Below, in pieces: positions 1 to 3,880 of a DNA stretch of 64,000 bases (position 1 is its first letter; the number at the start of each line of letters is the position of its first letter). The notes beneath the pieces were generated by a model. That model was given only the letters and a program-made list of their open reading frames with translations. It did not search any database and had not been told where the DNA came from. Made by a program: the position numbers and the translations under genes. Where the stretch lies: positions 1-64,000 of the forward strand of contig JAJZSN010000002.1 in assembly GCA_021849745.1 (NCBI GenBank), in the 5' to 3' direction. Source of the stretch: Bacillota bacterium (GTDB lineage Bacteria; Bacillota; GCA-003054495; Carboxydocellales; JAJZSN01).

Positions 1-1
1 G

Positions 2-181
2 AATTGTTCCCCCAGGGATGATTTGGGCCAAAGGGGACCCATAGAGGAGGCCTTAATCGACACTCCTGTGGAAGATGAGAACAACCCAGTGGAGATAGGC
101 CGGGTGGCCCGTTCCTATGACCCCTGCTTGGCCTGTGCCGTACAGCTTATCGCCGTGGGGAGGACGGATAATGACTATTAA
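2..181 (+). CDS. [NiFe]-hydrogenase large subunit, C-terminal fragment
   Basis: The reading frame is open from the window edge to TAA, so only the last 59 codons are present. The translation starts NCSPRDDLGQRGPIEEALI, the typical end of uptake [NiFe]-hydrogenase large subunits, and contains the C-terminal nickel ligand motif DPCLAC. In this family the two Cys of DPCxxC bind the Ni-Fe centre and a maturation protease cuts after a His or Arg three residues beyond the second Cys. Here that residue is Gln (CAVQ), followed by an 11-residue tail. The next gene, a cytochrome b, overlaps by 11 bases, as expected for a membrane-bound H2:menaquinone oxidoreductase. Family assignment is secure; the missing 5' part prevents subgroup assignment. 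Confidence 0.93.
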   Translation, partial: NCSPRDDLGQRGPIEEALIDTPVEDENNPVEIGRVARSYDPCLACAVQLIAVGRTDNDY

Positions 182-767
182 AACGGAGCTGGTTCAGCCT
201 CTGTTCATCAGGGTTTACCATTGGAGCTTTGCGGCTGCCATAGTTGTTCTTCTGTACACCGCCCTTTATACCCATTACCCTGTAAATATCCTTGGGTTTG
301 TCGATATGGGGAATATTAAGAAAGCCAAATACATGGCTTCTTATATAGCTCTTTTTTTGTTGTTGGCCAGACTTTACTACGGTATTATAACCCGGGATAT
401 TGGTCATATTATTTTTAACCGGCAGGATCTTAAGGATTTACCTGGGTTTTTCAAGTTTTATTTTTTCCTAGCCCGGAGAGAGCCTCCCCATGCCAAATAT
501 AATCCCGGCCAGAAGTTGATTTTCACCAGTTGGATATGGGTTTTCTTTTTTTCGGCCATCACCGGATTTATTCTCTACGACCATCAGCGGTTTGAATGGC
601 TGATACCTTTTTTTGGGGGGCTGCAGTATCTGCGCTTTCTTCACTACCTGGTGTTTCTATATTTCTTGGCTACCACTATACTCCATGTCTATCAGGCGGG
701 GACTGAAGACCCGGCCAAGCTCCAGGCCATGTTCACCGGCCACATGCGGCGGAAGGAGACGCCGTGA
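171..767 (+). CDS. Ni/Fe-hydrogenase cytochrome b subunit
   Basis: This 198-aa membrane protein is a cytochrome b561-like hydrogenase subunit that anchors the enzyme and passes H2-derived electrons to menaquinone. The N-terminus has the RVYHW motif of this family, with a His in the first membrane helix. About four hydrophobic segments follow, and later His residues (LHYLVF, LHVYQAG) are candidate heme b ligands. I place the start at ATG 171, preceded by GGGGAGGA; an upstream in-frame ATG at 117 lies inside the hydrogenase gene and has no ribosome site. It overlaps the large subunit stop by 11 bases, implying translational coupling. Family is confident; acceptor quinone is inferred. Confidence 0.9.
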   Translation: MTIKTELVQPLFIRVYHWSFAAAIVVLLYTALYTHYPVNILGFVDMGNIKKAKYMASYIALFLLLARLYYGIITRDIGHIIFNRQDLKDLPGFFKFYFFLARREPPHAKYNPGQKLIFTSWIWVFFFSAITGFILYDHQRFEWLIPFFGGLQYLRFLHYLVFLYFLATTILHVYQAGTEDPAKLQAMFTGHMRRKETP

Positions 768-932: not shown

Positions 933-1238
933 ATGAAAATAAACGCTTTTTTTCAAACCCAGGAAGAACTGAATAAGGCCCTGTATAACCTGGAGCGGGA
1001 GTTTCCGGACTTTTCCAATCAGGCTTTCCAAGCCAACCAAGTTAGTCGTGGTCGTCACCTGACCGAGATGTGGGAAACCATGGGGGCCTCCACGGGAACC
1101 CTCTTGGGCCGTATGATTGGGCTAGGTATAGAAACCGGTATCTTAATGACCAATGCCTTAATGGTAGCGCCCTTGGAGGCCGCCCAAAGAACCGAAGGCC
1201 AGGAAAAGCCCCAGGGAGTGCGGGTGGAAGTAGAGTAA
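933..1238 (+). CDS. Small protein with glycine-rich hydrophobic segment, unknown function
   Basis: This 101-aa protein has ATG preceded by AGGAGGTG at good spacing. The first 45 residues are polar (KINAFFQTQEELNKALYNL), possibly a short alpha/beta domain. Residues about 50-80 form a glycine-spaced hydrophobic stretch (GASTGTLLGRMIGLGIETG), and the tail is charged. I do not recognise the family. It precedes the HMA-like TGA-containing gene and a third small protein whose hydrophobic part has similar glycine spacing (GGLAGHFIGQNMD). The three may form one functional unit, possibly membrane-associated metal handling, but that is inference from position and composition only. Confidence 0.75.
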   Translation: MKINAFFQTQEELNKALYNLEREFPDFSNQAFQANQVSRGRHLTEMWETMGASTGTLLGRMIGLGIETGILMTNALMVAPLEAAQRTEGQEKPQGVRVEVE

Positions 1239-1385: not shown

Positions 1386-1402
1386 CCTAAAGGAGGTGCA
1401 AC

Positions 1403-1729
1403 ATGCCAACATTAAAAAACATTTTTGTTAATCCTCAAGCCCGGCTGGTCAAGGATGAAATCATTGGCCCTGGGGCCGGCCGGCGGCGGGCGGTTATTAA
1501 TGTCACAGGGCTTCTTTGTTTTCTTTGAGTAGACCGGGTAAAAGGGGCTCTGGTAGGGCTTAAGGGTGTAGAATCAGTAGAGTTTAATGAAGGGGCGGAG
1601 GAGTTTTTAATCTTTTATCGTGGGGAAAAATCTATGGCCGAAGAGATGTTAAATAGAGTTCTGGCTACGGTGGTGGTTCCTAAAGCCAGAGAATTTTTGG
1701 GCCAATTTGGTACCCAAAAGGAGAAGTGA
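1403..1729 (+). CDS. HMA-like metal-binding protein with in-frame TGA (candidate selenoprotein, CxxU)
   Basis: ATG 1403 follows AGGAGGTG and is read to TGA at 1727-1729 as 108 codons, with one in-frame TGA at 1526-1528 (codon 42). Translation continues in the same frame without any indel. Around the TGA it reads VTGLLCFL-U-VDRVKGAL, then a GVESVEF segment. This matches heavy-metal-associated domains (GMxCxxC...VxxAL..L.GV..V), with the TGA exactly at the second Cys. Conservation of the fold downstream, and the next gene's ribosome site (AAGGAG) lying at the true end, argue against decay. A short hairpin begins 16 bases after the TGA. Selenocysteine insertion is inferred; the alternative is a nonsense-mutated gene. 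Confidence 0.65.
1533..1561 (+). promoter_or_regulatory. Possible bacterial SECIS hairpin downstream of TGA
   Basis: Two alternative hairpins are possible within 35 bases after the TGA. One pairs GGGCTC (1545-1550) with GGGCTT (1556-1561), using three Watson-Crick and three G-U pairs around loop TGGTA; a GGU-containing apical loop at this distance is typical of bacterial SECIS elements. The other pairs ACCGG (1533-1537) with CTGGT (1550-1554). Both stems are weak, so this is tentative support. Confidence 0.35.
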
Positions 1730-1734
1730 AATAA

Positions 1735-2031
1735 ATGATAGATAACGGCAATCCCGGCATTAGAACTGCGGTTTGGCGTCAAATGGGAACCATCTATGGG
1801 GGTCTGGCGGGCCATTTTATTGGTCAGAATATGGATTTGTTAATCCTAACTTTGGATAAAGGGTTTGTAACCCCTTGGGCCGCTTTTAACCGTAAGGTAA
1901 ATGGCCAGACAGATTTTTACAGGCTTACTTTAGATGTTAATGATGAGCAGAAAGACCAAGTAACAAGAATTTTACAGGAATCTGGAGCCAGGTGGGTGGA
2001 ATATGAAAAGGGTAGATTACCGGAAGGGTAA
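1735..2031 (+). CDS. Small protein with hydrophobic core segment, unknown function
   Basis: This 98-aa protein starts at ATG 1735, five bases after the preceding gene, using a ribosome site (AAGGAGAAG) inside that gene's end, so it is probably translationally coupled. The N-terminal half has a glycine-spaced amphipathic stretch (GTIYGGLAGHFIGQNMD). The C-terminal half looks like a small alpha/beta fold (DFYRLTLDVND... GARWVEYEKGRL). No family is recognised. Its position suggests a shared role with the HMA-like protein. The GGTAGATTACC...GGTAATCTACC inverted repeat at its end (about 2012-2038) may act as a weak terminator. Confidence 0.75.
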   Translation: MIDNGNPGIRTAVWRQMGTIYGGLAGHFIGQNMDLLILTLDKGFVTPWAAFNRKVNGQTDFYRLTLDVNDEQKDQVTRILQESGARWVEYEKGRLPEG

Positions 2032-2383: not shown

Positions 2384-3880
2384 GTGGGTAATAGATTAGG
2401 AAATTTTAAATTAATTTATAAATTTATTTTTTTATGTACCATTGTTGGTCTGACCACCACTGTCTCTTTAAGTTATTTAGCTTTGTCCACTCTTAGAGGG
2501 GCACTGTCCACTTCATTAAACACCACGGTAACACAAGAATTTATTAATGAGCAAACCTGGGATTTGATTGTAGTACTATTTATTAGTTGGATAATACTTA
2601 GTTCTTTTGGCCTATTGATATCTTACCTAATGGCTAGGATTTTGGTAAATCCTCTGAACAAAGTGGTTCGAGCTATGGAACACGTGGAGAAAGGGGATTT
2701 GACCGCCAGAGTTAATTTAAAAGGACGGGATGAGATATCCCACTTGGCTGTCTCTTTTGATTCCATGATGGATACCTTCCACAAGCTGGTTGGGAAGGTA
2801 AACCAGGCAACAGTTTTAGTAACTGATACCAGCGATGCACTTCATAAAACCGCTCAAGAAACCCAGGGGGTTATTAACCAGGTAGCTAAAGGGGTAGAAA
2901 GCCTGGCCGCTAATGCCGGTCAACAGGATGCCAGCATTGATACCATGATGGATAACGTCCAGAGGCTCAACCAAGCTATAACCCAGATTAATGAGGGGGC
3001 CCGGGAGCAGGTAAGGGATGTTACCGAGACCTCCGAAAGTATAGAAGAAATGGCTAAGTCCATTGATATAATCAAAAAAAATATTGAACAAGTCATGGTT
3101 TCCTCTGCCCAAACCGCCCAGGTTGCCCAAAAAGGGGAGGAGATTGTCCATGATGCCATCTTAGGGATGGATAAGATCAAAAATACCGTATTACATAGCG
3201 CAGAAAGGGTCAGGGAGTTGGGACAACATTCCCAGCGAATAGGGGAAATGGTCAATCTGATTTCCGATATCGCTGAACAAACCAATCTGCTGGCTTTAAA
3301 TGCCGCCATCGAAGCGGCTAGGGCCGGTGAACAGGGCAAGGGATTTGCCGTGGTGGCTGATGAGGTCAGGAAACTGGCTGATGTGACCAATAAATCGGCC
3401 CGGGAAATCGGGGCCATTATCGGGGAAACCCAGCATATGATGGATGAAGTGGTGGAGGTAATGGGGGTAGGCACCCGGGAAGCTGAAGATGGCTCCCGCC
3501 TGGCTTCCAGCGCCGGGACGGCCCTCCAGGAGATTATGGCCAAAGTAGACGAAACCAACCGGGAAATTCAAGCCATTTCCCTGGCCGTTAAGGGCATAGC
3601 CCGCAACAGCGACGTAGTGGTGGCGGCCATGCAAAGCGTCTCGGCAATTACTGAAGAAAATACTTCCGTGGCCGAGGAAATGGGCCGGAACAGCACCAAT
3701 GTTCTTACAGCCATCGATAGTGTAACAGGTTCCATCCATGATATCTCCGCCTTCGCCGAAGAAGTAGCAGCCTCCACCGTCCAGATGAATACTTCCGCAG
3801 ACGGAATCTCCGACCATGTCCAGGAATTAAGAGAGATGGTCTATCAGTTGAAGGAAATGGTGGAGAAGTTTAGGGTATGA
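2384..3880 (+). CDS. Methyl-accepting chemotaxis protein
   Basis: This is a chemoreceptor that signals to CheA/CheW. Two membrane helices (about residues 9-32 and 53-77) are separated by only about 25 residues, so there is practically no extracytoplasmic sensor domain. A HAMP linker follows ([20 protein letters not shown]), then a long coiled coil with the conserved hairpin tip ([19 protein letters not shown]) near residue 310. I prefer GTG 2384 because AGGGGTG lies seven bases upstream; GTG 2375 is inside that site. A TATAAT is seen at 2351-2356 without a convincing -35. It probably senses membrane or intracellular state, or depends on a partner; the ligand is unknown. Confidence 0.93.

Follow-up and report, generated by a model that had tools for sequence, protein, structure and literature searches.

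A small open reading frame near the start of a contig from an anaerobic Bacillota bacterium is interrupted by one in-frame TGA. This raises the question of whether the codon ends a short peptide or encodes selenocysteine (Sec), and what the full-length product would do. In this study, we analysed the first 64,000 nucleotides of contig JAJZSN010000002.1 (assembly GCA_021849745.1), referred to as the window, whose features around this gene are collected in Table 1. An earlier note on this DNA had proposed a candidate CxxU selenoprotein with a single in-frame TGA and no indel. Translation of the reading frame gave 108 codons with the TGA at 1526-1528 as the only internal stop and zero frameshifts, in agreement with that description. 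The motif of the window protein has CxxU spacing with GLLC at the first Cys, and the protein has a mass of about 12 kDa.

Table 1. Features at the selenoprotein locus, in positions of the window
Feature	Position	Strand	Remarks
NiFe hydrogenase large subunit, C-terminal end (contig starts here)	1..181	+	Pfam PF00374, E 2.7e-18
Hydrogenase-type cytochrome b561, upstream context	171..767	+	Pfam PF01292, E 1.9e-25
small1, glycine-zipper protein (LTEMWETMGASTGTLLGRMIG)	933..1238	+	Homologous to the N-terminal half of a protein that is fused in Thermincola relatives
Shine-Dalgarno sequence AGGAGGTG ahead of ATG 1403	1391..1398	+	Read from sequence
Predicted HMA-fold selenoprotein CDS	1403..1729	+	108 residues, Sec42, terminal stop TGA 1727-1729
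In-frame TGA read as selenocysteine (C39-F-L-U42), HMA second metal-motif position	1526..1528	+	
SECIS-like hairpin: arms 1546-1551 and 1555-1560, apical loop GGU 1552-1554	1546..1560	+	Covariation, codon-preserving null
small3, glycine-zipper protein (IRTAVWRQMGTIYGGLAGHFIG)	1735..2031	+	Homologous to the C-terminal half of the fused protein named under small1

Seven homologues, each with one TGA, were found in other genomes when 101 genomes were searched. A profile search of 399 Bacillota genomes then defined 17 full-length members, including the window protein. The codon in these homologues, which the earlier note had singled out as worth checking, was TGA in 17/17 and Cys in 0/17. Each member has exactly one internal TGA, in the alignment column that holds the second Cys of the metal motif, and no disabling changes were seen. 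No full-length Cys form of the family was found in the 399 genomes; Cys at the aligned position was found only in generic heavy-metal-associated (HMA) domains. These generic domains lie below a score gap that falls from 71.6 to 44.8 bits under the family members, and they are mostly in long ORFs consistent with P-type ATPases. With TGA in every homologue and Cys in none, the family is Sec-only in this sample.

The members span several families of Bacillota. The gene is present in 9 of 10 genomes of the Thermincola-like order, the tenth being 63% complete, and in two of the four genomes sampled from the class of the window genome. The CxxU motif occurs in 13 members, the window protein among them, and for these the original reading of the motif stands; it does not hold for four members with CxxxU (L002, L003, L008, and L052). 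A degenerate DNA pattern, which covers the CxxU form only, gave 13 contig matches. Those in Thermincola-like, HGW Firmicutes, Bacillota SKS1.bin35, and PH28_bin88 records were taken as real, and the named records include Thermincola ferriacetica MAGs, HGW Firmicutes MAGs, and Clostridiales bacterium PH28_bin88. Matches in Fibrobacter, Helicobacter, Pseudarthrobacter, L091, and L097 looked like chance. A C-terminal segment, PxxRxxL, is conserved in the family. In L004, L005, L007, L042, L046, L047, L049, L050, and L051, that is, in Thermincola-like members and L007, the HMA part is preceded by a helical extension of about 60 residues at the N terminus. Homology of this extension to small1 or small3 was tested and was not found.

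The sequence 3' of the TGA was examined for selection. Five pairs gave dN/dS ratios after the TGA of 0.04, 0.05, 0.12, 0.12, and 0.16, and a sixth, more distant pair gave 0.32; dS was above 1 in five of the six pairs and therefore near saturation. These values place the region under purifying selection. The terminal stop of the gene is TAA or TAG in 16/17 members and TGA in the window only, so the gene does not usually end in TGA. Directly 3' of the Sec TGA the codon varies, being GTA, GTC, GTT, or AGT in most members, and no start codon is conserved there. Low dN/dS, TAA/TAG terminators, and the lack of a conserved restart together indicate that the downstream half is translated in continuity with the upstream half.

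These data bear on two other readings of the TGA. It could be a real stop, leaving a pseudogene or a truncated peptide of 41 residues, as formal translation under table 11 has it and as the weakness of the window hairpin by itself would allow. However, the same TGA recurs in 17 genomes, the downstream protein is conserved at the ratios given above without other lesions, the Sec machinery is present, the Shine-Dalgarno sequence is strong, and the gene is tightly linked to small3; we consider a real stop very improbable. Translation could also end at the UGA and restart just after it, and GTG does follow the TGA directly in L006, L046, L049, and L051. The variability of that codon speaks against two cistrons, as does the HMA fold, which is complete only with both halves: in the AlphaFold2 model, strands flank the residue-42 helix on both sides. 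Such a restart is highly unlikely.

Continuous translation with Sec at the TGA depends on the decoding machinery, and selA, selB, and tRNA-Sec, which the earlier note had suggested looking for, were all found in the window genome. SelA scored 633.1 bits, SelB 391.8 bits, and tRNA-Sec 70 bits with the anticodon TCA according to ARAGORN. SelB was above its cut-off in 17/17 carriers versus 30/43 other genomes tested (Fisher p 0.012, with related genomes treated as independent). Because Cys is the aligned residue in other HMA proteins, UGA might be read as Cys or Trp through a suppressor or a variant code. We regard this as scarcely credible against a canonical tRNA-Sec(UCA) with SelA and SelB, a TGA at 1727-1729 that still terminates the selenoprotein gene, and a SECIS-like hairpin 3' of the UGA. 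SelB and tRNA-Sec would decode the UGA at 1526-1528 as selenocysteine during translation. Neither missing Sec machinery nor disabling changes in homologues, both of which were named at the outset as evidence against a selenoprotein, were found when looked for. The proposal of a selenoprotein is borne out by TGA conservation, purifying selection, and the Sec machinery.

The window genome also holds an island of further TGA-interrupted genes on contig C47 (L141, G000:C47:1-4000), at 622-921, 979-1308, 1361-1996, and 2901-3389. Their putative types are MerT-like (GICU), MerP-like lipoprotein (UxxC), MerB-like (GCTU), and CopZ-family-like (RUC). The island shows a putative resemblance to Sao/mercury selenoprotein systems, with family names partly tested.

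The bSECIS model calls for an apical loop of 3-9 nt with G in the first two loop positions and a stem of 4-16 bp at 16-37 nt from the UGA (PMC13188914), with an energy of at most -7.5 kcal/mol (PMC13188914). The window hairpin spans 18-32 nt after the UGA and has 6 bp, with the loop starting 24 nt after the UGA; it lies within the limits on loop, G, stem, and distance. Its energy alone, -4.8 to -6.4 kcal/mol, is weaker than the threshold, and several other members reach -8.9 to -11.0 kcal/mol. The window's own 40 nt after the UGA have a lower MFE of -9.8 kcal/mol (z -0.99) in a structure other than the hairpin. Since these 40 nt prefer another fold, the description of the hairpin as weak was fair for the window alone. 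It does not extend to the family, in which compensatory changes were found.

Across the family, 96.1% of cells form the six hairpin pairs (columns 21-26 with 30-35, counted from the T of TGA, around a three-nucleotide loop). Changes on both sides were seen in four of the six pairs, and 0/500 shuffles reached the covariation score, although many covarying cells come from one clade-level change (Ala..Leu to Thr..Phe), so that independent events are fewer than cells. We also used a codon-preserving null in which synonymous codons were redrawn from local codon usage. Local hairpin stability was above most redraws in 16/17 members (single p from 0.001 to about 0.3); L054 had p 0.62 and lacks the six-pair hairpin. 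The combined p was 3.5e-9 over members that are not independent. A search of positions 1000-2400 against Rfam gave chance-level matches only. A GGU loop is also present 3' of the TGA in the CopZ-family-like gene, a predicted selenoprotein, of the window genome. The SECIS draws its support from covariation among the members rather than from how stable the window's own fold is. The short GGU-loop hairpin just 3' of the UGA would direct Sec insertion, as its conservation and the machinery imply.

We then compared the protein with HMA domains. With Cys at the TGA, the window protein matched Pfam HMA (PF00403) over residues 31-66 (E 1.3e-4), a weak single-sequence match whose 22.7 bits do not reach the gathering cut-off of 24.8 bits. 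The 17-member profile searched against HMA domains of known structure gave clear matches to CopA (2.6e-18), CopZ, and MerP, in which C39 and the TGA residue (U42) align to the two Cys of CxxC. The family profile thereby confirmed the HMA similarity on both sides of the TGA that the earlier note had seen, the single-sequence match staying below cut-off, and the alignment placed the TGA at the second Cys of the metal motif as it had claimed.

AlphaFold2 with the 17-row alignment predicted an HMA fold (pLDDT 78.7, pTM 0.66) with strands at 12-20, 27-35, 56-62, and 67-73 and helices at 40-51, 79-90, and 93-102. The model has a beta-alpha-beta-beta-alpha fold with the CxxC-type motif before helix 1 and Sec as the second Cys. 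It lacks the C-terminal strand of the classical fold and has one more strand at the N terminus; this extra strand beside the core would, on the model, be a feature of the family. The best PDB matches in Foldseek were Ccc2a, CopZ, and MerP (TM 0.77-0.81 by target length), with E values of 3e-3 to 4e-3 and none below 1e-3. In a CopZ/MerP-like HMA core to which an N-terminal strand is added, Sec would stand in for the second Cys of the CxxC metal motif. We hold with high confidence that positions 1403-1729 code for a selenoprotein with an HMA fold, a confidence that covers identity and fold, not function.

The window protein was compared with named families. In NCBIfam release 20, no model reached its cut-off, and the CopZ and UxxU models were far below. 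The closest named relative of the family is NF041115 (UxxU_metal_bind), which likewise has an HMA-type domain with Sec in the metal motif and weakly matches 16/17 members (best E 5e-10). However, NF041115 has UxxU with two Sec, whereas the window family has one Sec in CxxU or CxxxU, the extra N-terminal strand, and the PxxRxxL segment. Membership was rejected for the window protein (25.3 bits against a cut-off of 95; CxxU, not UxxU), and no NF041115 match above cut-off was found in the 17 carrier genomes. CopZ/Atx1-type chaperones and MerP (PF00403) share the fold and the position of the two-residue metal motif, but the window family differs in having Sec as the second Cys in 17/17 members, GLLC in place of GMxC, a longer protein, and no copper or mercury genes seen adjacent. 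The CC/Se motif family NF041239 (Moorella) also comprises small CxxU selenoproteins of anaerobic Bacillota. Membership in it, suspected from a 2026 review (PMC13188914), was rejected with no match of the window protein up to E 1, and NF041239 matches in the 17 carrier genomes lie at places other than the selenoprotein gene. NF045683, a heavy metal transport selenoprotein, resembles the family in its HMA part and Sec; it is a MerT/CopZ fusion-like protein by name, and only one of the 17 members matches it (E 6.7e-5).

The gene neighbourhood was then considered. A [4Fe-4S] ferredoxin gene adjoins the selenoprotein gene in 11/17 loci; it is a single-cluster ferredoxin (Fer4_13) directly downstream in nine loci and a FixX-like ferredoxin upstream, with a FixC-like flavoprotein, in two. 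In L002 a rubrerythrin-like gene is the neighbour. No P-type ATPase, mer, or cop genes were seen within 2.6 kb on each side in the 17 loci. The hydrogenase end and cytochrome b upstream were seen in the window only and not at the other loci of the 17, and a hydrogenase partnership was set aside because the hydrogenase adjoins the selenoprotein gene only there. The gene context favours a redox role over metal transport. In the f40 loci L003, L008, and L052, the selenoprotein gene and small1 lie on opposite strands and overlap tail to tail, and a short undecaprenyl diphosphate synthase-like gene lies alongside.

Two related small proteins form a further part of the neighbourhood. small1 and small3 flank the selenoprotein gene in the window and in three f40 genomes, on the opposite strand in f40; small3 starts 5 nt after the selenoprotein stop in the window. 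An hhalign comparison shows the two to be homologous (E 8.4e-6, probability 83%), and no Pfam or NCBIfam family was found for small1. Thermincola-like genomes encode the two as halves of a single protein elsewhere in the genome. Zipper-like matches were found in 14/17 carriers versus 2/382 other genomes (Fisher p 3e-21, with related genomes treated as independent), and one of the two non-carriers is a relative of Thermincola whose genome is 63% complete. A rubrerythrin-like gene adjoins the zipper gene in several Thermincola-like genomes; the copy tested (G211) has 46% identity to the one beside the L002 selenoprotein.

At the zipper loci L133-L140 and L142 (Thermincola-like plus L137), the fused zipper gene is often near a Met/Pro-rich protein with MMPPVMMPP repeats. 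Genes for a rubrerythrin-like protein, a NapC/NirT-type multihaem cytochrome, and a FIST-GGDEF-HD protein are likewise often found near it. In the window, two imperfect inverted repeats of short repeats (TAGCTTATAGCTGATAGC..., AGTTCGTAGTTCATAG...) lie at 767-915 and 1238-1384, on either side of small1.

The earlier note had left the protein as metal or redox; its sequence fits either, and redox is favoured by the gene neighbourhood. We propose, as the most likely function, that Cys39-Sec42 may be a thiol/selenol redox relay, a proposal that we hold at about even strength. The Cys-Sec pair would cycle through a selenenylsulfide, ferredoxin-type electron carriers would feed the relay or be coupled to it, and the glycine-zipper protein may act as its partner or scaffold. 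HMA domains mostly bind metals, and the hydrogenase neighbour is confined to the window; both count against a redox role. As the main alternative, the protein might serve as a soft-metal chaperone or buffer in which Cys39 and Sec42 hold Cu(I) or Hg(II) in the manner of CopZ or MerP, with Sec binding tighter. The HMA profile and fold, with CopZ, CopA, and MerP as nearest matches, are consistent with this role, as are the metal-binding name of NF041115 and the mercury-type selenoprotein island elsewhere in the genome. On the other side stand the nearest neighbours, among which no P-type ATPase, mer, or cop gene was seen at the 17 loci, the ferredoxins adjacent in 11/17, and the CxxxU of four members, which alters the spacing of the metal motif. 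We consider a soft-metal role possible but on balance doubtful. The redox relay can be extended to a Sec-only family in which a copper-chaperone fold has been repurposed as a relay that links ferredoxins to a membrane- or assembly-forming glycine-zipper partner, as an undescribed two-part system. This broader picture is tentative and rather unlikely.

The 2026 review counts 119 families or subfamilies of prokaryotic selenoproteins (PMC13188914), and an HMA protein with a single CxxU of the window kind is not in its table (PMC13188914). From the open-access literature and NCBIfam, the window selenoprotein is rated as a new family of a kind already known. Standard annotation likely misses the gene and ends it at residue 41, because every curated NCBIfam model scores it below cut-off. 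Cys homologues are numerous for nearly all selenoprotein families (PMC13188914); that no Cys form was found here suggests chemistry beyond that of Cys. The steady linkage to ferredoxins and to a glycine-zipper protein without a name offers concrete candidate partners for the selenoprotein.
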